64,000 bases of DNA from Lampris incognitus (taxonomy: Eukaryota; Chordata; Actinopteri; Lampriformes; Lampridae): contig NC_079222.1 in assembly GCF_029633865.1 (NCBI RefSeq), positions 35,223,987 through 35,287,986 of the forward strand, given 5' to 3'. Positions 3,659-63,572 of the stretch are shown here, piece by piece (position 1 is the first letter of the stretch; each line of letters starts with the position of its first letter). The position numbers were made by a program, and so were the translations under genes. The notes under the pieces were generated by a model. The model worked only from the letters and a program-made list of their open reading frames with translations. It was not told the origin of the DNA and searched no databases.

Positions 3659-4736
3659 AAACACCTGTCAATGGGTGGCGTGTATTAGGCAGCAAGTGAA
3701 CAGTCAGTTCTTGAAGCTGATGTGTTGGAAGCAGGAAAACTTGGACAAGCGTAAGGATCTGAGAGACTTTTCCAAGGGCCAAATTGTGATAGCTAGACGA
3801 CTGGGTCAGAGCATCTCCAAAACCACAGGTGGGGTGTTCCCGGTATGTAGTGGTCAGTACCTGCCAAAAGTGGTCCAAGGAAGAACCGCTGGTTGAACCT
3901 GTAACAGGGTCATGGGCACTTAAGGCTCATTGATGTGCATGGGGAGCAAAGACTAGACCATCTGGTCTGACCCCACAGAAGCGCTACTGTAGCTAAAATT
4001 GCTGGAAAAGTTAATACTGGTTATGATAGACAGGGGGCCGCATAGCTGCAGACTGGTCCGAGTGCCCATGATGACCCCTACCCACCGTTGAAGCACCTAT
4101 AATGGGCACGTGGGCGTCAGAACTGGACTATGGAGCAATGGAACAAGGCGGCCTGGTCCGATGGCTCACGTTTTGTTCTACATCATGTGGCTGGCCAGAT
4201 GCATGTGCATCATTTACTTGGGGAAGAGATGGCACCAGGATGCACTATGGGAATAAAGCAAGCCAGCGGAGGCAGTGTGATGCTCTGGGTAATGTTCTGC
4301 TGGGAAACCTTGGGTCCTGGCACTCACGTGGATGTTACTTTGACATGTACCACCTACCTAAACATCACTGCAGACCAAGTACACCCCTTCATGGCAACGG
4401 CACTCCCTGATGATACTGCAAACATAGTTCAGGAATGGTTTGAGGAATGTGACAAAGAGTTCGAGGTGATTTCTTGGCCTCCAAATCACCCAGATGTCAA
4501 TCCGACCGAGCATCTATGGGATGTGTTGGAAAAACAAGTCTGATCCATGGAGGCCCCACCTCGCAACTTACAGGACTTGAAGGATCTGCTGCTAATGTCT
4601 TGGAGATACTAGAAGACCCCTTCACAGGTCTTGTGGAGTCTATGCCTCAATGGGTCCGAGCTGTTTTGGTGGCAGGAGGGGGACCTTCACAATATTAGGC
4701 AGGTGGTTTTAATGTTTTGGCTGATGGGTGTATAAA
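3659..4736 (+). mobile_element. Tc1-like DNA transposon, decayed
   Basis: This is the body and right end of a common fish Tc1 element. The right end (about 4694-4736) carries the typical terminal sequence TTAGGCAGGTGGTTTTAATG followed by GTGTATA. The left terminal repeat is missing and the element begins inside its 5' untranslated part, directly after a truncated SINE. The transposase frame is broken, so the copy is immobile. Confidence 0.85.
4087..4695 (+). pseudogene. Tc1 transposase remnant (DDE catalytic half)
   Basis: The longest intact piece (4130-4543) shows typical Tc1 features in order: a WSDGSRF-like strand at the first catalytic Asp, GGSVMLW, then WPPNHPDVNPTEHLWDVLE around the last catalytic residue. 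The segment that normally holds the second Asp (QQDNAPCH-type) is deleted or frameshifted around 4412-4430. The C-terminal part continues in another frame to about 4695. It is not functional. Confidence 0.8.
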
Positions 4737-7012: not shown

Positions 7013-7386
7013 TGTAAGCGGTTATTTTCTTGCCCGGTGCGGGATTCGATACGGGATGTACTGCACCACAAGGCGACATCGCTAACCGCTCGGCTAAAGG
7101 GTCAGACCCGTTAGCTAGGGGCTAACGTGTCTTATTAGTAGTTTACAGTCGTCACCCTCTCCCGGAAGCGCGCCCTCGCGCTTTGTTATTCCCGCGCTCC
7201 GAAGAGACTTCTGAGGATCTGCACACTTCCGGATCCCGCCGCTGCCACCGATGTAACCGGTTATTTTCTTGCCCGGTGCGGGATTCGATACGGGGTGTAC
7301 TGCACCACAAGGCGACATCACTAACCGCTCGGCTAAAGGGTCAGACCCGTTAGCTAGAGGCTAACGTGTCTTATTAGTAGTTTACA
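7013..7386 (-). mobile_element. Miniature LTR retrotransposon, copy A
   Basis: Two 135-bp direct LTRs (7013-7147 and 7252-7386) flank a 104-bp internal region. Read on the minus strand, each LTR starts TGTAAACTACTAATAAG. The right one ends CCGGTTACA and the left ends CGCTTACA through one substitution. The primer-binding site at 7233-7250 differs at two positions from the tRNA-Leu complement seen intact in copy B. Pol III A-box (TAGCCGAGCGGT) and B-box (TATCGAATCC) motifs lie in each LTR. There is no coding capacity. I see no clean target duplication (flanks CTAA and ATAG). Confidence 0.88.
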
Positions 7387-12243: not shown

Positions 12244-12618
12244 TGTAACCGGTTATTTTCTTGCCCGGTGCGGGATTCGATACGAAGTGTACTGCGCCAC
12301 AAGGCGACATCACTAACCGCTCGGCTAAAGGGTCAGACCCGTTAGCTAGTGGCTAACGTGTCTTATTGCTAGTTTACAGTCGTCACCCTCTCCCGGAAGC
12401 GCGCCCTCGCGCTTTGTTCTTCCCGCGCTCCGAAGAGACTTCTGAGGATCTGCACACTTCCGGATCCCACCGCTGCCACCAATGTAACCGGTTATTTTCT
12501 TGCCCGGTGCGGGATTCGATACGGGGTGTACTGCACCACAAGGTGACGTCACTAACCGCTCGGCTAAAGGGTCAGACCCGTTAGCTAGGGGGCTAACGTG
12601 TCTTATTAGTAGTTTACA
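12244..12618 (-). mobile_element. Miniature LTR retrotransposon, copy B
   Basis: LTRs at 12244-12378 (135 bp) and 12483-12618 (136 bp) flank a 104-bp internal region, and all four LTR ends are TG or CA. This copy has the perfect 18-nt tRNA-Leu primer site. Reading the minus strand, a purine-rich GGGAGAGGGTGACGAC precedes the downstream LTR, in the position of a polypurine tract. The internal region has a 7-bp GC hairpin (arms 12397-12403 and 12408-12414). It sits beside a (TA)n run, which hides any target duplication. Confidence 0.92.
12464..12481 (-). promoter_or_regulatory. tRNA-Leu primer-binding site of copy B
   Basis: The plus strand reads ATCCCACCGCTGCCACCA, which is the 3' end including CCA of vertebrate tRNA-Leu (AAG/TAG type, from memory). 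The minus strand is therefore complementary to that tRNA. It lies one base from the LTR end at 12483, the standard place for a minus-strand primer site. Confidence 0.85.
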
Positions 12619-13670: not shown

Positions 13671-14029
13671 TGTAAACTACTAATAAGACCCGTTAGCCCT
13701 GCCCCTTTAGCCGAGTGGTTAGTGACATCGCCTTATGATGCAGTACACCTAGTATCGAATCCCGCTCCGGGCAAGAAAATAACCGGTTACATCGGTGGCA
13801 GCGGCGGGATCCGGAAGTGTGCAGATCCTCAGAAGTCTCTCCGGAGCGCGGGAAGAACAAAGCGCGAGGGCGGTCTTCCGGGAGAGGGTGACGACTGTAA
13901 ACTACTAATAAGACACGTTAGCTCCTAGCTAACAGGTCTGACCCTTTAGCTGAGTGGTTAGTGATGTCGCCTTGTGGTGCAGTGCACCTCGTATCGAATC
14001 CCGCACCGGGCAAGAAATAACCGGTTACA
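13671..14029 (+). mobile_element. Miniature LTR retrotransposon, copy C (opposite orientation)
   Basis: This is the only copy with its sense strand on the plus strand. The 5' LTR (13671-13791, 121 bp) has lost part of the GTTAGC/GCTAAC hairpin segment. The internal region is 13792-13895 (104 bp) and the 3' LTR 13896-14029 (134 bp). The primer site CGGTGGCAGCGGCGGGAT is at 13793-13810, with changes from copy B. The flanks CTAG (13667-13670) and CAAG (14030-14033) look like a degenerate 4-bp target duplication. Confidence 0.88.
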
Positions 14030-17589: not shown

Positions 17590-20417
17590 CTGCTTAATTT
17601 CCCACTTTGGTTTTGGCCTTTGCCTGAGCTTGTGCCCATGCGACAGGTGTGGGGGTGGTACGGGTGTCCTCATTTGCAAAGACTGGACATTCCCTAAGCT
17701 TTCTCTGCTAAGCAACCGCTCCTCATTTGAATACCATGCAATCATGGTTACTGCTCCAATTAAGCTATTTGTGGTTGTCATGTACCGCCCACTAGACTGT
17801 CAACAGGAGAACTAGACATGTCACTCTCAGACATTCCTGATGATGACACACCACTGATTGTCAGGGAGACAATCACTATCCTTACTGAAAAAACCCAGGT
17901 GACTGACTTCCTGCCTCTTCTGTCCTTCTTTGACCTCAGACAGGTCCCCACCCCTTCCACACACAAAGCGGGCAGTACTCTTGATCTGACTTCAACTCGG
18001 AACTGCCCCACAGCAAAATTGACTGTCACCTCCCTACATCTGTCAGACCACTTCTTTATTCAGATCACGGCCTCCTTACTGGAACATCCTCACGTTCCTC
18101 CACAAAGGGTCTCCTTCTGCAGAAACTTCTGGTCTTTTACACCGACCCAGCTCTCCAATGAGGTATTGGCTTCCATCCCTCCTCATAATGAATTCTCTTC
18201 ACTCTATGTCAGCGAGGCTACAGACACACTCTGTTCCTCACTAGCCTCCTCGCTTAACAATCTCTGCCCTCTAGCACCCAAAGCTGCTCGTAATGCCCCC
18301 TGCCCCCACTAGTGCATGGCTCACTGAGTTCATCAGAGAGTAAAGGGTGGGGCTCAGAGTGACAGAGAGAAGACAGTGTAAAACCAGAGAGTCCACTGAC
18401 CTCAGTGACTATCAGCATCTCCTGGCATCATTCTCCTCCAGCTTAAAAACAGCTAAGTCCACTTACTATCAGGAATCAGAACAAGATCTGTGGCGCCACT
18501 GATGCTCGAAAAATGTTTTTTGCTTTTAACTCACTCCCTAATCCACCTCCTACTCCGACCTCCACTCTGCTCACTCCTGACATGTTGGCCTCATACCTTA
18601 CTGATAAGGTTTCTGCTGTCAGCAACCAGTTCTCTGAGTCTGACGAACTCTGTCTGCCACTGCCAGCTAACAGGGCCACACTCACCTCATTCTCCCTCCT
18701 GACCGGAAAGGACGTCTCCAAGCTTCTGCTGGACTCTCGTCCCACTACCTCGCCGCTGGACCTGATACCATCCAACCTCCTACAGACCCCCCCCCCACTT
18801 AACCCCGCAGTCACACACATCATCAACTCCTTGCTTACAATGGGTGTGTTCCCCACTGCATTTAATCCAGCTCGGGTCGCCCCGCTGCTCAAAAAGCCTA
18901 CATTCAACCCAGCCCAGGTTGAAAACTACAGGCCGGTTTCATTCCTACCCTTTCTTCCAAAAATACTTGAGTGCATGGTCTTTAATCAAGTCTCTGAATT
19001 CCTTTCTGAGAGCAATCTTTTTGATCCGAATCAGTCTGGCTTTAAGCGGGGTCACTCTACCGCGACTACACTCCTGTCGGTAGTAGAATCACTGCATTTG
19101 GCTAGAGCTGCTGGTCAGTCCTCAGCTTTATTGCTGCTAGATCTGTCAGCTGCCTTTGACATGCTTAACCACCAAATCCTCCTCTCCATACTCACTGAAC
19201 TTGGTATCTCAGGATTTACCTTCCGCTGGTTCATGTCCTACCTCTCGAGAAGATCTTTTAGAGTAACTTGGAGGGGAGAAGTGTCCAAACTGCACGGCTT
19301 ATCCACAGGGGTGCTTCAAGGGTCAGTGCTCGGTCCCCTTCTCTTCTCAATATACATCCCCTCACTTGGTGCAATCATCCGCTTCCATGGCTTATCATAC
19401 CATTGATATGCTGACAATACCCAGCTCATCGTATCATTCCCGCCAGTGACCTCATAGTCTCGGCACAGATATTGTCATGCCTTGCTGACATCTCTGCATG
19501 GATGAAAGAATGCCATCTTCAGCTTAACCAACTAAGACTGAGCTCCTTTTCATCCCAGCCAGTCCATCCTTACAACTACAGATCAATATCCAGCTCGGAT
19601 CAACCCAACTCATGCCCACAAAGTCTGTCCAAAACCTGGGTGTCATGATTGATGACCAACTAACCTTTAAGGTTCATGTGGCCTCGATTGCTCAGTCATG
19701 TTGATTTTCCCTGTACAGCATCAGGAAAATTAGACCCTACCTGTTTGAGCATACAGCACAACTCCTGGTACAGGCTCTTGTTTTATTGGGTATTGACTAC
19801 TGCAACTCCTTACTGGCAGGTCTCCCTGCATGCACTTTCAAACACCAACCCAAAACAGCACATTTCACCCCTCTGTTCATATCCCTCCACTGGCTGTCAG
19901 TTGCTGCCCGCATCAAATTCAAAACCTTAATGCTCGCTTACAAATCAACAACTAAAACGGCTACCTGAACTCCCTCATTCAGGTCTACACTCAGTCCCGC
20001 TCACTACGCTCTGCCAATGAAAGGCGCCTGGCACTTCCACCACAACAGGGCCCGAAGTCACTTGCTGGACTCTTCTCTTCTGCAGTTCCCCAGTGGTGGA
20101 ATGAGTTACCAAACTCCATTTGATCCACTGAGTCCCTCTCCATCTTTAAGTAGAAGCTTAAGACCCAACTCTTTCTCGAACACCTCCACACCTGATGGTA
20201 TTAATAAAAAACAAAACAAAAGAAAAACGCTTCTATGCACCTTATACACTGCCTCTGTGCACTGCCTGTTGACACCTACTATGTCCTGTTAGACTTGAAC
20301 CTAGTTTTTTGGCACTTACTTGCATTGTCGCCTCCTGATTAGATCCTTGCTTGTGTTGTATTAAGTCTCAGATGTACGCCGCTTTGGGCAAAAGTGTCTG
20401 CTAAATGAAATTGTAAA
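17590..20417 (+). mobile_element. L2/CR1-like LINE, nearly full ORF2 but inactivated
   Basis: A decayed non-LTR retrotransposon. The C-terminal part of the apurinic endonuclease is visible at about 17630-18300 (GGGTGVLI, then VVVMYRPL, then LHLSDHFFI), followed by a linker and the reverse transcriptase (18513-19440). The C-terminal thumb-like region is scrambled by frameshifts (19450-20190). The 3' end holds GCTTTGGGCAAAAGTGTCTG and a CTAAATGAAATTGTAAAT tail, typical of fish L2-type LINEs. It is 5'-truncated and carries many stops. Confidence 0.85.
18513..19440 (+). pseudogene. LINE reverse transcriptase remnant
   Basis: A 297-codon open stretch to 19406 contains NYRPVSFLPFLPKILECMVF (fingers), SGFKRGHSTATTLL, LLLDLSAAFDMLNH (motif A with the first catalytic Asp) and TGVLQGSVLGPLLFSIY (motif B). 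A stop codon then falls just before the YADN box, where most families have YADD. Upstream frames are broken. It cannot make an active enzyme. Confidence 0.85.
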
Positions 20418-36090: not shown

Positions 36091-37088
36091 CTGTATTCCT
36101 CTTTGAAAAGCGGTAATAAAATTGTTCATTGCAAAAAAAAATAAAATAAAATAAAATGAAATAAAAGGTTTCAGTTTAGGACCTAAAAATGTTGCTGTGC
36201 CCCTGCCTTCACTTACAGAAATATGTGGTCAGAGTTGAAACGCATGACCCAGTGTCACGGGTACGAACAACACTGGCGTCCAACATAAAGCTGTCCAAGT
36301 TCTCCTCTGGTAAAGTCATATTTACAGAAATATATGGGGGTCAAAGTCAAGTGTCCTCATCATTTGCTTTCATACTCATAGCAAAGTGCAAGGACCAGAT
36401 AGTTTTCTTCTCTTGATAATACTCTCGATATAAATACCCCAAACCTGTCATTATTTCACATTATCATTCACAACCGGTGCGGACGTTAATGTTTCCTTCT
36501 TGCAGCTGTTTAAACTTTCAAATGAGCAGAAAAAAAGATCAAGTGACCTTTGTCAATTCAATGATCAGCTTCCCATGTGAATCTGTCATGCGAACTTGTC
36601 CCAATTTAATCACTATTTGCAAGACCTTAATTGAAGTGAATGGACACCAGTGAGAGCAAACAATATCCTAGCACCGCTTCCCCAGTTCTTAACCCAGAGG
36701 GAATGGTTTTTGAGCTCAGGCTGCTTTTGTTGCTGCAAGATCTTGTGATGTAAACATGAAATAAGGAATGAAAAAGATGATGCAAGTGTCTTGTGTACGC
36801 GCAGCGTATCCGTGCATGGTGATGTAAGTGCAGTGATATAATGTTCAATAACTGAAGTAAACAGAATATTTTACTTTGTTCATGTCCAGAGTAAAGTCTC
36901 TTCTGAGAGACCATCCATGCCTTCCCTTGTGTCATGAAAAGAATGCCATGTTTTCTCGTAACTGGTTTTTATGGTTTTCAGGAAAGGAAAGCCGATAGCC
37001 CCAGAAAGATGTTTTCAGTTAGGAGTGTGGAGGAGGCAAGGCAAGGTAGATACAGACGTAGTTGAAGTTTACTTTGAAGAGCTAAGTG
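36091..37088. other. Unassigned spacer
   Basis: No gene recognised. A short open frame (36971 on) runs into the minisatellite and has no known match. Confidence 0.4.
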
Positions 37089-38385
37089 CAATCCTGCACC
37101 ACAGCACCTTCATGTCCAACTGCAGTCCTGCACCACAGCATCTTCATGTCCAACTGCAATCCTGCACCACAGCATCTTCATGTCTAACTGAAATCCTGCA
37201 TCACAGCATCTTCATGTCCAACTCCAATCCTGCATCATAGCACCTTCATGTCCAACTCCAATCCTGCACCAAAGCACCTTCATGTCCAACTGCAATCCAG
37301 TACCAAAGCATCTTCATGTCCAACTCCAATCCTGCATCACAGCATCTTCATGTCCAACTCCAATCCTGCATCACAGCATCTTCATGTCCAACTCAAATCC
37401 TGCATCACAGCACCTTCATGTTCAACTGCAATCCTGCACCACAGCATCTTCATGTCTAACTGAAATCCAGTACCACAGCACCTTCATGTCCAACTCCAAT
37501 CCTGCATCACAGCATCTTCATGTACAGCTCCAATCCTGCATCACAGCATCTTCATGTCCAGCTCCAATCCTGCATCACAGCATCTTCATGTCCAACTGCA
37601 ATCCTGCACCACAGCATCTTCATGTCCAACTCCAATCCTGCATCATAGCACCTTCATGTCCAGCTACAATCCAGCACCACAGCACCGTCATGTCCAACTG
37701 TAATCCTGCACCAGAGCACCATCATGTACAACTGCAATCCTGCATCACAGCACCTTCATGTCCAACTGCAGTCCTGCACCACAGCATCTTCATGTCCAGC
37801 TCCAATCCTGCATCACAGCATCTTCATGTCCAACTGCAATCCTGCACCATAGCATCTTCAAGTCCAACTGCAGTCCTGCACCATAGCACCTTCATGTCCA
37901 ACTCCAATCCTGCACCAAAGCATCTTCATGTCCAACTGCAATCCAGTACCACAGCATCTTCATGTCCAACTCCAATCCTGCATCATAGCACCTTCATGTC
38001 CAGCTACAATCCAGCACCACAGCACCGTCATGTCCAACTGTAATCCTGCACCAGAGCACCATCATGTACAACTGCAATCCTGCATCACAGCACCTTCATG
38101 TCCAACTGCAGTCCTGCACCACAGCATCTTCATGTCCAGCTGCAATCCAGCACCACAGCACCTTCATGTCCAACTGCAATCCAGTACCATAGCATCTTCA
38201 TGTCCAACTCCAATCCTGCATCATAGCATCTTCATGTCCAACTGCAGTCCTGCACCACAGCACCTTCATGCCCAGCTACAATCCAGCACCACAGCACCTT
38301 CATGTCCAACTGTAAGCTGCACCACAGCACCTTCATGTAAAACTGCAATCCTGCACCACAGCACCTTCATGTCCAACTGAATTCC
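37089..38385. repeat. 34-bp minisatellite, about 38 units
   Basis: The unit is ATCCTGCACCACAGCA followed by CCTTCATGTCCAACTGCA (34 bases). Because 34 is not a multiple of three and no frame has a stop, long open frames arise (up to 253 codons). A block at 37627-37800 recurs almost identically at 37967-38140, exactly 340 bp or ten units away. Confidence 0.93.
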
Positions 38386-39824
38386 AGCAAACCAAGCATC
38401 CAAAGCTGCATTAATCAACACAACAATCCACAATAATACGTACTAACAAAAAAAGGCGTGTGAACTAAGCCAAAATAAAACAACACCATGGATTTTTTCA
38501 TGAAGGATTTCAATATTGCTGAGTTAAAAACTCAAATATCAAACCTAAATTTGGTACAAACAATCCATCCAAGCACAAGCAAAATTGCCATGCATGTTTT
38601 AATGAGGAATGCAAGGAACTATGCCATTCCAGTCCTTCTTCACCTTTGCCTATAACTACAAGCTAAACCTCAAAAGCAAATACACATGGGAGTATATGGT
38701 GAGCTATTTTCAGCAGAAGGTTCTACGTGAGCACAATAAATAAATAAAAAGCAGTGAAAAACAATGCTAATATACCAACAATTTAAATTCCCAAATTCTG
38801 AATAAAAGAAAAGAAATTGATCTAATATTTAAAGTCAGTTTCATGTTAATGATGATGTGTTGTTGCAGCAGAAAACTAGGAATAAGGCATTACTTTCTAC
38901 CTTCAGTGGCTTATTGTATTTTATTTCAGTCAATTTATTTTTTTTCACAGTAAAGATGATATGAGTCATGTTAGTCTGTTTTTGTTGCGACTGTGTTATT
39001 GATTGTATCAGCAAAATGTCCGTCTGGGTGTCTTTTGCTTGGGGCTAAATGCCGTCCCTGCTAAACGCCTTCTTGGATTCGTACTGGGAATACCCTAAAA
39101 AAGCAGCGCCTTTAAACTCCAAACATAACTGTATTACTATCTGCTGCAAAAATGGATTGATGTCATCTATATAGAACTAACTTTAGGGTTTTAATTTGTT
39201 GCTTTTTCAAAACTTGTGTGGATACTTGTTTGCTCCTACATCGTAATATCTCGCTTGTCTTTTTATCAGTTCACCAGATGACGGGTTTTCTTTACTCACT
39301 ATGAGATTTACTATATGTGCTTACAAATCATCTCCCCTAGACGAAGACCCAAATGCCCTGCTCTACTTGTTCAAATATATGTTTTGGGACGACTACACTT
39401 TGCCTGGGTAAAGATCAAAGAGTAAAGGGCCTTTACTATTCAGGCCGCAAGGTCTCAGGATAGCCAAGGTACCAAGACTTAAAAGTCCATGACACCATAA
39501 ATCACTTTTTAAAGCACTGTTCTGCAAAAAGGCCCGGCCCTCAGTCAAGCCAAATTCCATTTTCAGGGGCAGTCAAATCTCTAATACTATATTGCTTTGC
39601 AGGTCCAGAGTCGACATACGCACCATGCAAAATGTCATCATTTCTACCACCTTCTGACTAAGTCTTTAGGTGAATGTGTCTGTGTATCATTTACATTTTA
39701 CAAAGTTGTCTTTTCTGAATAGGTTTCGACAAATAAAGTCATTAAAAAATTAAATTAATAATGTGTTGTATGTGAGTCTAAGAAACCCCTCCAGTCACAT
39801 AACTGTCAATCACAAGAAAGGCGG
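38386..39824. other. Unassigned spacer
   Basis: AT-rich. Nothing recognised. Confidence 0.4.
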
Positions 39825-45999: not shown

Positions 46000-48900
46000 C
46001 TAAAAACCAGGAAGTGGGGAGGAAGGTTTGCGATAAGAAAGTTTATGATTTTAACCGGAGCAATGTTTTACTTTTACTGCTCCTTTACCTTCTGGTTGAA
46101 GGGCCATTTGAGCAGGGCATCACTCAGTCCCCTCATCACGACGAAGAACAGGGACAAGTGGCTGCCACGCCCTGTCCCGTCTCCATTAAGATAAATCCGC
46201 AGGCACATCTTATAGCCATATTTACTGGTGTAGAAGGCTACGAGGAAAAAAACACCCATCTTTATTTCGGATTTCATCATTGGCCCATAAAGAAAACTAC
46301 AACGAATGCAAACGTACAAACTGTTCTCATAGAGGTGAGGGAGGTTACCTGGGGAGAACATAGCGGGGGCTCGCCCAGCAATGGCATCCTGCCTCTTCTT
46401 GGTGAAATCTGAGATCCGCCAGACGAAGACACCATCAAAGGTGGTGGCGGACATTTCCCTCAGCCTGCCCTCCATCTCGGCGACAGTCAGATCCTTCAGC
46501 CCCACCGTCCTCTCCAGCTGGCGCACCTGAAGAATAATAAATACAGAGCGCACAAACTGATGAAGGATGAATTTCATTTGGGGGGGGGGGTTCCCCCCTC
46601 TTTTTTCTCCCCAATTGTATCCAGCCAATTACTCCACTCTTCCGAGCCGTCCCGGTCGCTGCTCCGCCCCCTCTGCCAATCCGGGGAGGGCTGCAGACTA
46701 CCACATGCCTCCTCCGATACATGTGGAGTCGCCAGCCGCTTTTCACCTCACAGTGAGGAGTTTCACCAGGGGGATGTAGCACATGGGAGGATCCAGCTAT
46801 TCCCCCCAGTTCCCCCACTCCCCCCTGAACAGGCGCTCCAACCGACCAGAGGAGGCGCTAGTGCAGTGACCAGAACACATACCCACATCCGGCTTCCCAC
46901 CAGCAGACACGGCCAATTGTGTCTGTAGGGATGCCCGACCAAGCCGGAGGTAACACGGGCAACGGAATAGACCGCTACGTTACCTGGATGCCCGTATGCA
47001 TTTTTACTGTAGTATTAAAAATCATTTTAAGGATTACAAATCACATTTTCACGACCTCAACTAAAACTAAATAAATTACATGCCAACACAATAAATACAC
47101 TCAAAACACTTGTTCTCGTTTCTCCTTACCTTATTACTAAGAGCCTCGATCTTATCTTGGTCTAATCTGTGTTGGCGATTGCTGGCCTCCATGGTCGTGG
47201 CAAACCTCTCCACCTCCCTATTCAGGACACACACCACATTTTCAAATGTGCCAGCCTTAACTTCAAGCTCCGTGCACCTGCGGCCCAGCTCAGCCACCTT
47301 AGTCTTCTCACTGTGCAGCTGGAGCTCCAGAGCTGCGCCCACTGAACTTGGCAGTGGCGTGAAGGAGGTAGAAACAGATAGGGTGGGAGCCAGAGTGGGA
47401 GGAGGTGGGAGGGGAGCTGAAGCAGATGGACCGGGTAGACCAGAGCTGGAGGAAGAGGAGGTGGCCCCCTGCACGGGAGGCCCAGAGGAGGTGTTGCTGA
47501 GCTGGGAGACTCTTGCCTCGAGCTCCCTGAGGGACTGGTGGAGTTCAACCAATCTGTGTCCAGCTAGCTCCAGGCCTTGGGGCTGCAGGCCTTCCATGCT
47601 TACTTTCATGCCCATAATGTAGTGCAGCAGCAAGTTGAGGTGCTCATAGGCGCATGCACGCTCATGGTCATGGATCTTGTCCTTCTCCACCTACATAAAG
47701 ACAGGAGTTGCAAGAATAACAACTGAGTCTAGTTTGCACTAGGATACTGAAAAGTGTGTTATCTGGCTGGTTGCAGTATGATTACATTCAATGAGACAAA
47801 AAGGCTACTTACTGACATATCACAACCCACGACATGAAATCGACATGGAGTTCTGAACTTGCTGCAGAACTTGATATGGTCCACATACTAAATAAACCAT
47901 ACACATAGATTCAGTTAAAGATTATCCTTAAAACATTCATAATTATTCAGTTTAGTCTAACTTCAAATGATCAGTTGATTAAAAAAAAGGGCATTCCTGG
48001 TTTATGTTTAGTCAGAACAGTTTACCTTTTCTCTGGGTATTTTTTTCTTGGCACAGCCTTCACAGATCATTGGATACTTGGGACAGATCTCATCATGTGC
48101 CTATAAACAGATGGTTATTTGTTTATTTCTTGCCAAAATCCCCCCCCCCCAAAACAAACATGGCTGTATGCGGCAATACAGGCTGACATCTTAGAACGTT
48201 AACTTAAAATACTTTTTTCAGACCTTGATATTTTTGAAGTGAAATGGTTCCTTGCAGTACTTGCAGTTGAGTGTTCTCTCAGGGCACTCTCGCTCATTAT
48301 GGCGTTCCTGTTCATTGAAGCGGATTCGTTCTTTACAGGAAGGGCAGGGGATGATCATAAACTCACATTTCCCCTCATGGTTTATCTGCAGAGAAGTAGT
48401 TGTGTCAGTATATACAGTATGGAGGTAGTCATACGTATAAAATTATATAAATAGAATGGCAGTGCTGAACAGAATATATCAGAAAAACGCAGTTATGAGT
48501 GCAAGACAAGACACCAAGCTCTTAAATTGTTAGGATATCTGAAAATACATGTTAGCTTGTTTGTTACATGAGATCAGATAGCCTTGGGTGTCCAGCAGTG
48601 ATGCAAATCAAAGTATACAACACTTGTTTGTGATCAAGCAATGTGATTTGCTGAGAACTGTTTATTTACTGTGATGTCATGGCAGCCACATTAGTCCACT
48701 TGTAATATACTGCTTCTAACAGCTGATTCCAACAACAGCTGGTTTCACTGGCTGTCATCAAGTATCCGTGCAAGCAATGGACGTGTTTCAAAATATTCAA
48801 TATATAGCCGGACAGTCTGACTCGGAAAACGCACACAGGGAGATGTCAACAGTGAGGTGAGCAAGCTGATCTGATGCTGATGCAACTCCTAAAGCGCACA

Positions 48901-51900: not shown

Positions 51901-54900
51901 AACAGCGGACAGATTCTCCACTTCTCTCCGAGCGGCATTGTCAGGAAAAGCCTGCAAAAAGAGCAAAGTCAAATAAAGGCATTTGCTGCCATAACGTGTC
52001 TGCGTTAAGTCTGTCTTGTTCGTGCATGATTTCGGCTGAAAAAGTGATGGGTGAAAACACGCAAATTGTACTTTGTTAGAAATCAGGAATAAACAAACGT
52101 ATCTGAATAACCCCCAAAAAAAACACAGAATTTATTTTGCATTTTCCTCCATCATCCAAACCGCTTATCCTGCTCTCAGGGTGGCGGGGATGCTGGAGCC
52201 TATCCCAGCAGTCGTTGGGCGGCAGGCGGGGGGGGTGGGGGTGGGGGGACACCCTGCATTTTCATTACGCTCCATTTTTATTATCACTTTGGATTTCTAA
52301 CATTCATGAATATTAGCCTACCTACTCCCTGTAAACTCCTTCTCGAGAAAATGCTTTAAGGCACCACAACTGCAAAAAAATAAAAATAAATAAATGTTAA
52401 AAAGCGCCACAGAGGGCGTCCGGGTAGCGTGGTGGTCTGTTCCATCACCTACCAACACGGGGATCGTCGGTTCAAATCCCCGTGTTACCTTTGGCTTGGT
52501 CGGGCATCCCTACAGACACAATTGGCCGTGTCTGCAGGTGGGAAGCCGAATGTGGACATGTGTCGCTGCACTAGCGCCACCTCTGGTCGGTTGGGGTGCC
52601 TGTTTGGGGGGAGGGGGGGGCAGGGGGGAATAGCGTGATCCTCCCACTCGCTACATCCCCCTGGTGAAACTCCTCACTGTCAGGTGAAAAGAAGCGGCTG
52701 GCGATTCCACATGTATCAGAGGAGGCATGTGGTAGTCTGCAGCCCTCCCCGGATCGGCAGAGGGGGTGGAGCGGAGACCGGGACAGCCTGTAAAACAGGG
52801 TAATTGACCAAATACAATTGGGGAGAAAAAGGGGGAAAAAATCCCCCCCCCCAAAAAAAAGAAAAAAGCCACGGAGACACAGTCACAAATCTTATGATGC
52901 AAGGTGTTTTCAACGTTAACGAGATGCACAGGTACACATGGCCATTGTAACTCTGTTAATGGGCACACCCATATTTGCATATGAAACTGGTCGTTGGTTT
53001 CGGTCGTTGTACATCTGTCGCCATTTTACAATGCTGTGAATGCAACTATTCCCCAATCCTCTGTGAATAGTACACATGGCCATTGTAACTCTAGTTGAAG
53101 GTCACACCCATATTTGCATATGAAACTGGTTGTTGGTTTCAGTGGTTAGGCACTGTATTGTTTATAAGGGGGGGGGGGACACCTGCAGTCGGTTTAGACT
53201 GAAGAGGTCACTTAGTTGAGTGATGAGACGCATCGGTCAATAAACGTTGTCTCCAGATGAACTGGTTCAACCGTCTTTGACAGATAACGGAGGGCTAGAA
53301 TAAAGTAAGGGCGAGGTTAAGTTCATGTACATGTGAGACTAAGGTTGGGGTTGGCTGATGTTGACATTAGGTTAAGGTTAAAGTTAGGGTTAGGTTGAGC
53401 GTAGGTTAGTGTGAGAGTTTCGCAAACTTGCAAATCTAGGTTTACCATCTAGACATAACCATGTCCATTACTACTACTTTCGGCTGCTCCCGTTAGGGGT
53501 CGCCACAGCAGATCATCCTGCATGTCCTCCCTCACCACATCCATAAACCTCCTCTTTGGCCTTCCTCTTCTCCTCTTCCCTGGCAGCTCCATATTCAGCA
53601 TCCTTCTCCCAATATACCCAGCATCTCTCCTCCACACATGTCCAAACCATCTCAATTTCGCCTCTCTTGCTTTGTTTCAATTGTCCAAACTGAGCGGTCC
53701 CTCTAATATACTCGTTCCTAATACTGTCCTTCTTCGTCACTCCCAATGAAACTCTTAGCATCTTCAACTCTGCCACCTCCAGCTCCGCCTCCTGTCTTTT
53801 CATCAGTGCCACTGTCTCCAAACCATATAACATAGCTGGTCTCACAACCATCTTGTAAACCTTCCCTTTAACTCTTGCTGGTCCCCTTCTGTCACAAATC
53901 ACTCCTGACACACTTCTCCACCCACTCCACCCTGCCTGCACTCCCTTCTTCACCTTTCTTCACCTTTCTTCCACACTACCTGTTACTTTGGAAAGTTGAC
54001 CCCAAGTACTTAAACTCATCCACCTTCATCACCTCCACTCCTTGCATCCTCATCATTCCATTGTCCTTCCTGTTGTTCACGCATATGTACTCCATCTTGC
54101 TCCTACTGACTTTCATTCCTCTTTTCTCCGGTGCATACCTCCACCTCTCCAGGCTCTCCTCAACCTGCACCCTACTCTCACTACAGATCACAATGTCGTC
54201 TGCAAACATCATCATCCATGGAGACTCCTGCCTGATCTTGTCCGTCAACCTGTCCATCACCATTGCAAACAAGAAAGGGCTCAGAGCCATTACTTGATGT
54301 AATCCCACCTCCACCTTGAACCCATCTGTCATTCCTACCACACACCTCACTACTGTCACCGCTTCCCTCATCCATATCCTGCACCACTCCTACATACTTC
54401 TCTGCAACTCCCGACTTCCTCACACAATACCACACCTCCTCTCTCGGCACCCTGTCGTATGCTTTCTCTAAATCTACAAAGACACAATGTAACTCTTTCT
54501 GGCCTTCTCTATACTTCTCCATCACCATTCTCAAAGCCAACATCCCATCTGTGGTGCTCTTTCATGGCATGAAACCATACTGCTGCTCGCTGATCGTCAC
54601 CTCTCCTCTTAACCTAGCTTCTATTACTCTTTCCCATATCTTCCTGCTGTGGCTGATCAACTTTATACCTCTGTAGTTGCTACTGTTCTGCACATCGCCC
54701 TTGTTCTTGAAAATCGGTACCATATGCTTCTTCTCCACTCCTCAGGCATCCTCTCACTTTCCAAGATTGTGTTAAACAATCTAGTGAAAAACTCCACTGC
54801 CATCTCTCCTAAACAGCTCCACGCCTCCATGACCATGTCCATTGTTACCAAGTCTTAATATACAACATTTGCTGGGCCGTGCACAGCTTCTTTCTGGTTG

Positions 54901-60122: not shown

Positions 60123-60467
60123 ACATCCAATCATCACCCTAATTTTCTTTCAACTTTATTTTAGATAAAAACTATTTGAAATATACGAATATAATGCCGG
60201 GAAACATCATCTGCCAATTCAGCCAACTTCTAAGGGTTAGTAGACACGTTTCAGCTGAAATGTGGTGGAGGGCACCACCTCATTAGCTGATCGACATCTC
60301 ATTAGATGATCCTTCACACTGGGCTAGTGTCAAATCAAGAAAAACGGAAAAGAAACACTAGACAAAATTGATGTCCAATAGAATAAACATGGGAATTTAA
60401 GGGGCTCCTTCACACCTCATACGCTTCCGATGGCCTTACGGTCGCTCCATCCCACTTCTGACACCAT
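60123..60467 (-). mobile_element. Internal region with a second tRNA-Leu primer site
   Basis: The minus strand starts, one base after the type-A LTR, with TGGTGTCAGAAGTGGGAT, then about 320 bases of noncoding sequence to the LTR-like fragment. No ORF of note is present. It makes the neighbouring LTR serve two internal regions. Confidence 0.55.
60449..60466 (-). promoter_or_regulatory. Primer-binding site, other tRNA-Leu type
   Basis: The plus strand reads ATCCCACTTCTGACACCA, matching the 3' end of another tRNA-Leu isoacceptor (from memory). One base separates it from the LTR end at 60468. Confidence 0.75.
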
Positions 60468-60866
60468 TGTAACCGGTTATTTTCTTGCCCGGTGCGGGAT
60501 TCGATATGGGTGTATGTACCGCACCACAAGGCGACATCACTAACCGCTCGGCTAAAGGGTCAGACCCGTTAGCTAGGGGCTAACGTGTCTTATTAGTAGT
60601 CTACAGTCGTCACCCTCTCCCGGAAGCGCGCCCTCGCGCTTTGTTCTTCCCGCGCTCCGAAGAGACTTCTGAGGATCTGCACACTTCCGGATCCCACCGC
60701 TGCCACCAATGTAGCGAATTCGGGGGACAACGCAACCACAGGAACTGCCGCGGGGGGGACGCGAACCCGTTTCGCCCGCACCGCAGGAGACATCGCTAAC
60801 CGCTCGACTAAAGGGTTAGATCCGCCAGCCAGCGGCCAGCGTGTCTCCTTATCCATGCACGTTACA
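60468..60866 (-). mobile_element. Miniature LTR retrotransposon, copy D, chimeric
   Basis: LTR at 60468-60605 is the same type (A) as in the other copies. The internal region 60606-60709 (104 bp) has a perfect primer site (60691-60708). The other LTR, 60710-60866 (157 bp), is a different type (B). It also runs TGTAACG...CTACA and keeps CCTTTAGTCGAGCGGTTAGC (A box) and GGGTTCGCGTCCC (B box), but otherwise differs. The outer flanks do not match. Confidence 0.85.
60691..60708 (-). promoter_or_regulatory. tRNA-Leu primer-binding site of copy D
   Basis: Identical to the site in copy B: the plus strand reads ATCCCACCGCTGCCACCA, one base from the LTR at 60710. Confidence 0.85.
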
Positions 60867-62975: not shown

Positions 62976-63572
62976 ATGTGCGCCACAGACGTCTCACGTT
63001 TACCAACTAAATGTACTGCCAAAGACCGTGCAAGGCAGTTCCCTGATGTTCTGCACGAAAGCGGGGTTAAACTGGTGTAACCGGTTATTTTCTTGCCCTG
63101 TGCGGGATTCGAGACGAGGTGTGTGTACTGCACCACGAGGCGACATCACTAACCGCTCGGCTAAAGGGTCAGACCCGTTAGCTAGGGGCTAACGTGTCTT
63201 ATTAGTAGTTTACTGTCGTCACCCTCCCCGGAAGCGCGCCCTCGCGCTTTGTTATTCCCGCGCTCTGTAGAGACTTCTGAGGATCTGCACACTTCCGGAT
63301 CCCCCCGCTTCCACCAATGTAACCGGTTATTTTCTTGCCCGGTGCGGGATTCGATACGGAGTGTACTGCACCACAAGGTGACGTCACTAACCGCTCGGCT
63401 AAAGGGTCAGACCCGTTAGCTAGGGGCTAACGTGTCTTATTAGTAGTTTACACTGGTTTGCGCCACATGCAACGTTGTGGTGGAACACAAACATAAATCG
63501 TCGATTGGCAAACACCTTTCTACCGCAGGACACACCCGGACAATGGCTGAAACGCCTCGACAGCAGACATGA
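62976..63572 (+). pseudogene. CGGBP1-like BED zinc-finger ORF, split by an LTR element
   Basis: From ATG 62976 the frame runs 33 codons plus one base (to 63075, including DRARQFPDVLHESG), then is cut by the retroelement. After the second CTGG it resumes at 63457 in register and continues CATCNVVVEHKHKSSIGKHL to a TGA at 63570-63572. C35, C38, H53 and H59 form a BED-type finger. The N-terminal region resembles CGGBP1, itself derived from hAT transposases. The frame after the stop still looks coding-like (SPRQAVAPGSV), so the TGA may be secondary. Role unknown; likely a transposon gene. Confidence 0.75.
63076..63452 (-). mobile_element. Miniature LTR retrotransposon, copy E, in the BED-finger ORF
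   Basis: LTRs at 63076-63214 (139 bp) and 63318-63452 (135 bp) flank a 103-bp internal region. One inner LTR end has mutated from TTTACA to TTTACT. The primer site is partly mutated (CCCCCCGCTTCCACCA). The 4-bp target duplication CTGG lies at 63072-63075 and 63453-63456. The 63318-63452 LTR has a TGACGTCA at 63379-63386. Confidence 0.93.

Follow-up and report, generated by a model that had tools for sequence, protein, structure and literature searches.

A miniature LTR retrotransposon family with tRNA-like A and B boxes in its LTRs, and its hybrids with a sister family, in Lampris incognitus

Introduction

What kind of element occupies positions 12,244 to 12,618 of the DNA analysed here, and by which machinery would it be transcribed and moved? 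The window, by which we mean the whole stretch of 64,000 nucleotides of Lampris incognitus contig NC_079222.1, had been predicted from its letters to contain five copies of a miniature LTR retrotransposon with tRNA-like pol III promoter boxes inside the LTR. Two known kinds of elements offer themselves for comparison: the plant Cassandra, a miniature element with 5S rRNA promoter sequence in its LTR, and the tRNA-derived SINEs, which have a LINE-type tail, variable target duplications and no LTR. Here, we conclude with a probability of roughly 0.8 that the repeat, called family 1 in the following, is a pol III-driven miniature LTR element that is primed by tRNA-Leu and moved by Ty3/Gypsy proteins; pol III transcription, its start site and the role of the helper are the parts that we infer from sequence.

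Anatomy of the window copies

A copy-B query matched the window at the five places named in the original prediction (7013, 12244, 13671, 60468 and 63076). With the sequence oriented as the boxes run, four of them (A, B, C and E) show the architecture LTR-internal region-LTR, with total lengths of 374, 375, 359 and 377 bp, respectively. Paired LTRs of about 135 bp had been claimed for all five copies; this holds for these four but not for copy D, which has two unlike LTRs.

Copy A, 7013-7386, minus strand: LTR 7252-7386, internal region 7148-7251, LTR 7013-7147; LTR pair different at 4/135 positions; primer site with 2 mismatches; no target duplication
Copy B, 12244-12618, minus strand: first LTR 12483-12618, internal region 12379-12482, second LTR 12244-12378; LTR pair different at 8/135 positions plus one gap; primer site intact
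Copy B, 12464-12481, minus strand: primer-binding site, 18 nt, 0 mismatches, one base past the LTR
Copy B, 12555-12566, minus strand: A box motif in the first LTR
Copy B, 12512-12521, minus strand: B box motif in the first LTR
Copy B, 12316-12327, minus strand: A box motif in the second LTR
Copy B, 12273-12282, minus strand: B box motif in the second LTR
Copy C, 13671-14029, plus strand: LTR 13671-13791, internal region 13792-13895, LTR 13896-14029; target duplication matching at 3/4 bases
Copy E, 63076-63452, minus strand: LTR 63318-63452, internal region 63215-63317, LTR 63076-63214; CCAG duplication at 63453-63456 and 63072-63075

The LTRs of these four copies are 134-139 bp long, except for the first LTR of C (121 bp, 14 bases shorter), and have TG..CA termini, except for the second LTR of E, which starts with AG. 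They enclose a non-coding internal region of 104 bp in A, B and C and 103 bp in E. An 18-nt primer site (TGGTGGCAGCGGTGGGAT) lies one base past the first LTR, with no mismatch in B and D and two in A, C and E, and a purine tract (GGGAGAGGG, in E GGGGAGGG) stands 7 bases ahead of the second LTR. The predicted TG...CA ends, the internal length of 103-104 bp, the position of the primer site and its intactness in B and D, as well as the purine-rich stretch before the other LTR, were all confirmed.

In the reference LTR, 45 bases separate the start of the A box from the start of the B box. The statement that every LTR carries both boxes stood with regard to this spacing and for most LTRs; as exact motifs, the A box was found in 7/9 and the B box in 8/9 of the family-1 LTRs of the window, being missing from both LTRs of C (A box) and from the second LTR of E (B box). 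The target duplication is an exact 4 bp (CCAG) in E and matches at 3/4 bases in C, 2/4 in A and 1/4 in B.

Other features of the window comprise the exons of a TRAF gene at 46074-47690 (minus strand), with a TRAF/MATH domain and a TRAF BIRC3-binding domain, and a 34-bp tandem repeat of more than 30 copies at 36982-38400, through which long open frames run. Remains of reverse transcriptase genes are located at 17764-19406 (plus strand) and 53976-54561 (minus strand): RVT_1 was detected in 18447-19406 and 53976-54389, was below the cut-off in 54181-54561 and was not found in 17764-18312. A DDE transposase fragment at 4103-4543 (plus strand) scored 24.9 bits, below the Pfam cut-off of 28.6.

Genome-wide abundance and target duplications

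The search of the whole genome that had been suggested for the family was run on the 1.48-Gb assembly with a box-pair pattern (exact A box, 20 to 50 bases, exact B box) and yielded 5871 places (2983 + 2888). Since the reversed control yielded 0, the pairing of the boxes is not due to chance. A search with the internal region gave 1904 first-look candidates, 40 of which were scored. Altogether, 123 loci were fetched, and the element set was drawn from 118 of them, minus five that overlapped others or the window, plus the window itself. It contained 45 complete family-1 elements, 4 in arrays and 41 outside arrays; the latter came from exact-box places on one contig (22), from the internal region (14), from the hybrid pattern described below (1) and from the window (4).

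The 4-bp flanks of the 41 non-array elements were identical in 21 cases, differed by one mismatch in 9 and by two to four in 11, whereas 1.95 exact matches were obtained with shuffled flanks; hence, integration of family 1 leaves 4-bp target duplications. This result bears on the idea of a dimeric tRNA SINE, moved by a LINE and merely resembling an LTR element. The tRNA-like head and the thousands of box pairs are what such a SINE would display, but it would have to accommodate TG..CA termini flanked by 4-bp duplications, a primer site one base past the LTR and window copies without a 3′ tail beyond the second LTR; already contradicted by the fixed duplications and the constant ends, it is hardly credible.

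The purine tract was present in either exact form (GGGAGAGGG or GGGGAGGG, 7 bases from the LTR) in 35/41 elements. That it is not flush with the LTR counts against the miniature LTR element as the best explanation.

Two loci deserve mention on their own. In L119, the internal region is related to that of family 1 (84%) and the LTR is diverged, which points to an older sister family. L066 has three family-1 LTRs in succession, 179 and 876 bases apart; the same A-rich sequence (AAAAACAAAA) follows two of them, which could reflect duplication of a solo LTR together with its flank.

Primer site and candidate helper element

The primer site is perfect in 29/41 elements. Its complement equals the final 15 bases of a tRNA-Leu-like gene in this genome followed by the CCA added to tRNAs. 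This gene was the single match of an exact pattern searched genome-wide (reversed control 0), and we read its sequence as tRNA-Leu AAG.

The same primer site without the following C, a pattern that leaves out intact family-1 internal regions, occurs at 169 places, and four short stretches from these were examined as possible parts of a helper. One (L122) is an ordinary family-1 copy and one is the diverged relative L119. The third, L121, has a different LTR with AATAAA that ends in CGGTTACA as in family 1, followed by one base, the identical 18-nt site and then unrelated sequence; the last eight LTR bases are common to L121 and family 1. The LTR of the fourth, L120, is similar to that of L121 but ends in CGGTCACA; its primer site is the same, and the sequence beyond it is not that of L121. 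The 149-base start of the L121 element (bases 103-251) gave 89 first-look candidates in the genome, and all of the 40 that were scored matched, that is, at least 40.

On the same strand, 2.6-3.8 kb downstream of the L121 primer site, a 1.2-kb piece (L123) matches the Pfam families RVT_1 (7.2e-23) and RT_RNaseH (1.3e-32), reverse transcriptase and RNase H; the best PDB match of its RNase H part is the Ty3-G Gag-Pol (4.9e-26), and a stop interrupts the reading frame in this copy. L121 and L123, 2.6 kb apart, presumably form one continuous element. This element is probably a Ty3/Gypsy, and its family is a plausible candidate for a helper that would mobilise family 1 in trans.

With a larger element sharing primer site and the last eight LTR bases, it might be argued that the family-1 copies are ends left by deletion of a larger element carrying this same LTR. 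The prediction had named this as a way in which it could fail, and as regards the candidate helper they are not such ends: the alignment of L121 with family 1 covers internal bases 1-19 only, and past the primer site the examined part of L121 does not align. Among the fetched loci, only four same-strand pairs of family-1 LTRs enclose at least 120 unannotated bases (179-2154), and in none is the LTR followed by the primer site, although, the loci being mostly 1.5-4.2 kb, a long element could be missed. As candidates for a larger element with the family-1 LTR these four pairs were rejected; the longest stop-free stretch between them is 159 codons (L082). An origin from deleted ends is very improbable.

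The tRNA-like part of the LTR

In the LTR majority sequence the A box reads TAGCC..CGG, which fits TRGCY..YGG, and the B box is TATCGAATCC (GTATCGAATCC), without the G of GGTTC. Had the boxes failed to be conserved across the family, the prediction would have been in difficulty. Their conservation was assessed in 43 LTRs that adjoin an internal region, from 28 loci found via the internal region and not via the LTR, the window copies having been removed. At non-CpG positions, the boxes (16 positions) varied from the majority at a rate of 1.0%, versus 3.7% for the other 99 positions (permutation p=0.0046); with all positions included, the rates were 1.8% versus 3.6% (p=0.033). When a two-box frame was slid over the LTR in 81 placements, the six best were 51 to 56, the true placement, 53, ranking third; here one gap column inflated the outside rate, and it was removed in the non-CpG and all-position comparisons. 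The contrast has to be read with its background, as much of it is supplied by the stretch between the boxes, where variation reaches 6.5%, more than in any other part except the gap column. Once CpG sites are included, the A box (2.1%) is on a par with the sequence preceding it (2.2%) and with that past the B box (2.4%).

The interval that begins at LTR position 41 and runs to the last base of the second LTR has no TTTT in 39/41 elements, compared with 27.4 expected from base shuffles. Since this terminator is lacking, one pol III RNA could span both LTRs.

A functional tRNA within the LTR was rejected, as ARAGORN found no tRNA in the window and Rfam no family at the gathering threshold in the window and, for copies D and E, none even with E up to 5; this counts against the pol III reading. 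The copies thus match no known Rfam RNA, and the Rfam searches returned no 5S rRNA sequence in the LTR.

These data can also be read in terms of a pol II-transcribed TRIM whose tRNA-like part is a functionless relic of an old SINE insertion. The degenerate B box, an A box hardly better conserved than its neighbours once CpG sites are counted and a TAATAAG stretch in the LTR that could pass as a TATA box are all compatible with such a relic. It would leave unexplained, however, why the non-CpG box sites are conserved above the remaining LTR, why T4 is absent in 39/41 elements and why the sequence switch in 6/7 of the mosaic LTRs described in the next section falls between position ~37 and A-box position 56, and we consider it unlikely.

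Copy D, the sister family X and hybrid elements

Copy D is a hybrid of family 1 and a sister family, X, and is composed as follows.

Copy D, 60710-60866, minus strand: upstream LTR of sister family X, 157 bp, with an A-box-like part of its own and the B-box-like site GGTTCGCGTCC
Copy D, 60606-60709, minus strand: family-1 internal region, 0/104 differences from the internal region of copy B; primer site 60691-60708 intact
Copy D, 60468-60605, minus strand: family-1 LTR, situated between two internal regions
Copy D, 60404-60467, minus strand: truncated start of the family-X internal region, with the other primer site at 60449-60466

Its two LTRs differ at 41 of 129 aligned bases, and its second primer site (60449-60466) is presumably of the tRNA-Leu CAA/CAG type. 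Elsewhere, family X consists of a 117-bp internal region (INT2) flanked by two X LTRs (LTRX), nearly complete in L068, where the first LTR lacks 21 bases; the B-box-like site of the family is GGGTTCGCG.

The end of a family-1 LTR followed by the family-X primer site was found, with up to 2 mismatches, at 55 places, not all of which are family 1 (L027 is not). Twenty of these loci were fetched, and 18 remained after considering that L011 and L012 overlap and that L027 has no family-1 LTR at the junction. They fall into three groups. In 6/18 (L011, L015, L020, which is copy D, L022, L023 and L025), a complete family-1 LTR follows INT1 within an array, and in L011/L012 the alternation LTRX-INT1-LTR1-INT2 occurs twice. 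In 7/18 (L010, L013, L014, L016, L021, L026 and L028), the LTR is a mosaic that starts as X and continues as family 1; in 6/7 the switch falls somewhere from position ~37 to position 56, where the two families differ by T/C in the A box, and L028 is more complex. In the remaining 5/18 (L009, L017, L018, L019 and L024), a family-1 LTR beginning at position 57-72 is joined head to head with an inverted LTRX, inside the tRNA-like part; in 4/5 of them the join terminates in an LTR end on either outer side, next to ATAT.

Judged from their junctions, the hybrids fit an RNA whose 5′ end lies shortly before the A box, the U3 being taken from the X LTR at the other end. We put forward, only tentatively and with the odds against it, a scheme in which two TRIM families, both driven by pol III and each with its own tRNA-Leu primer site, co-replicate: read-through RNAs of alternating arrays (LTRX-INT1-LTR1-INT2-...) would be primed at inner sites, and the progeny would receive U3 from one family and R-U5 from the other, with the switch at the pol III start, or would form head-to-head joins if the last strand transfer failed. 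If this were true, genomic breakpoints would map the 5′ end of the RNA without any RNA data.

Alternatively, ordinary recombination between copies at the DNA level, and not reverse transcription, may have generated the alternating arrays and mosaic LTRs, an origin to which we give a little less than an even chance. LTR1 and LTRX are nearly identical around GGGTCTGACCCTTTAG, exactly where most of the switches fall, and recombination would be expected there because of this shared stretch. Against it speaks that 4/5 of the head-to-head joins are flanked by ATAT on the outside, as if inserted in one step; this is not conclusive, because ATAT is also a common target of family X (7/17 left flanks).

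LTR divergence and age

LTR distances were determined for 30 elements with a target duplication matching at 3 or 4 bases. The mean distance was 5.2% within elements versus 5.5% for first-second pairs of different elements (permutation p=0.007). As the former is barely below the latter, family 1 is old or its LTRs have been reshuffled, and present activity is not implied. Among the window copies, B and E have first LTRs that differ from each other at one base (plus a gap), and the LTR pairs of B and of E themselves differ at eight bases each (plus gaps).

Individual sites behaved differently. A non-CpG site that is commonly T was unlinked within elements (T in both LTRs in 2, expected 1.6), and a 4-base insertion near position 31 was partly linked (in both LTRs in 4, of 7 and 7). 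At position 71 (reference numbering), a CpG C/T site, C was found in 16/30 first versus 6/30 second LTRs; this asymmetry may be due to chance, as it concerns one CpG site among many. Unequal inheritance, meaning LTRs not identical at insertion, was considered and dropped, because an old burst together with hypermutable sites is compatible with these data.

Discussion

The predicted miniature LTR retrotransposon with tRNA-like boxes in its LTR is supported by the 4-bp duplications, the tRNA-Leu-like primer match, the conservation of the non-CpG box positions, the scarcity of internal T4 and the larger element that shares the primer site. In the life cycle that we envisage for family 1, pol III would bind the box pair in the first LTR and start about 10 bases upstream of the A box, so that the first ~40 bases of the LTR would act as U3 and the remainder as R-U5. 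Transcription would continue across the internal region and the second LTR, T4 being generally absent from both, and would stop in the flanking DNA or a neighbouring copy. A tRNA-Leu would then prime at the primer site, the usual two strand transfers would rebuild the LTRs, and Ty3/Gypsy proteins, from an element that shares the primer site and the LTR terminus with family 1, would copy and integrate the DNA, giving rise to the 4-bp duplication.

New here are a family with thousands of copies, a sister family with which it swaps parts and a likely larger helper. A concrete Gypsy-type family can thus be offered as helper candidate, and the hybrids may provide a DNA-level handle on the start of the template RNA. 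If the boxes work, thousands of TFIIIC-type sites would be scattered through a genome.

With tRNA-derived SINEs, family 1 shares a tRNA-type internal promoter, short length and many copies, but unlike them it has LTRs, a primer site and 4-bp duplications and no LINE tail. It differs from Cassandra in its fish host, in carrying A/B boxes of the tRNA type instead of 5S sequence and, as a rule, no T4 inside the LTR. Cassandra and family 1 resemble each other in being miniature, in a pol III promoter in the LTR, in tandem arrays and in a helper that is not established, as far as the parts of the two sources considered here go (PMC7215508, PMC10886601); the arrays of Cassandra are tandem LTR-internal arrays (PMC7215508).

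The closest counterpart is Helenus (Helenus / TRIMp3), the name given by Kojima 2024 (PMC10886601) to TRIMs with tRNA-derived sequence in the LTR. According to the text up to the Conclusions, tables and legends of that paper, Helenus elements are 311-1263 bp long, and the vertebrate families include zebrafish LTR-11_DR, LTR1_LCh and Helenus-1_CaAu, with fish among the hosts; animal Helenus show 4-bp duplications with Gypsy as likely helper, vertebrate members are primed by tRNA-His, -Leu or -Lys, and zebrafish has 5575 Helenus LTRs. Searches of the literature for Helenus with TRIM, TRIMp3 and LTR-11_DR returned no relevant paper beyond this one; TRIMs from ants, bivalves and a tapeworm were among the matches listed by another search. 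The same portions of PMC10886601 mention neither alternating arrays of two families nor mosaic LTRs switching near the A box. Two families of one genome in alternating arrays and mosaic LTRs accordingly set the present case apart from Helenus as described there, as does the B box TATCGAATCC in place of GGTTC, which is reported as conserved and not as a defining condition (PMC10886601). Family 1 agrees with Helenus in its length range, A/B boxes in the LTR, primer site and purine tract, 4-bp duplications, tRNA-Leu as primer, arrays in tandem and thousands of LTRs in one fish; for family 1, too, a Gypsy element is the candidate helper. On the strength of that description it belongs to Helenus, a kind already described, and is placed beside LTR-11_DR by description, not by sequence, giving independent confirmation that Helenus-type elements can reach thousands of copies per genome.
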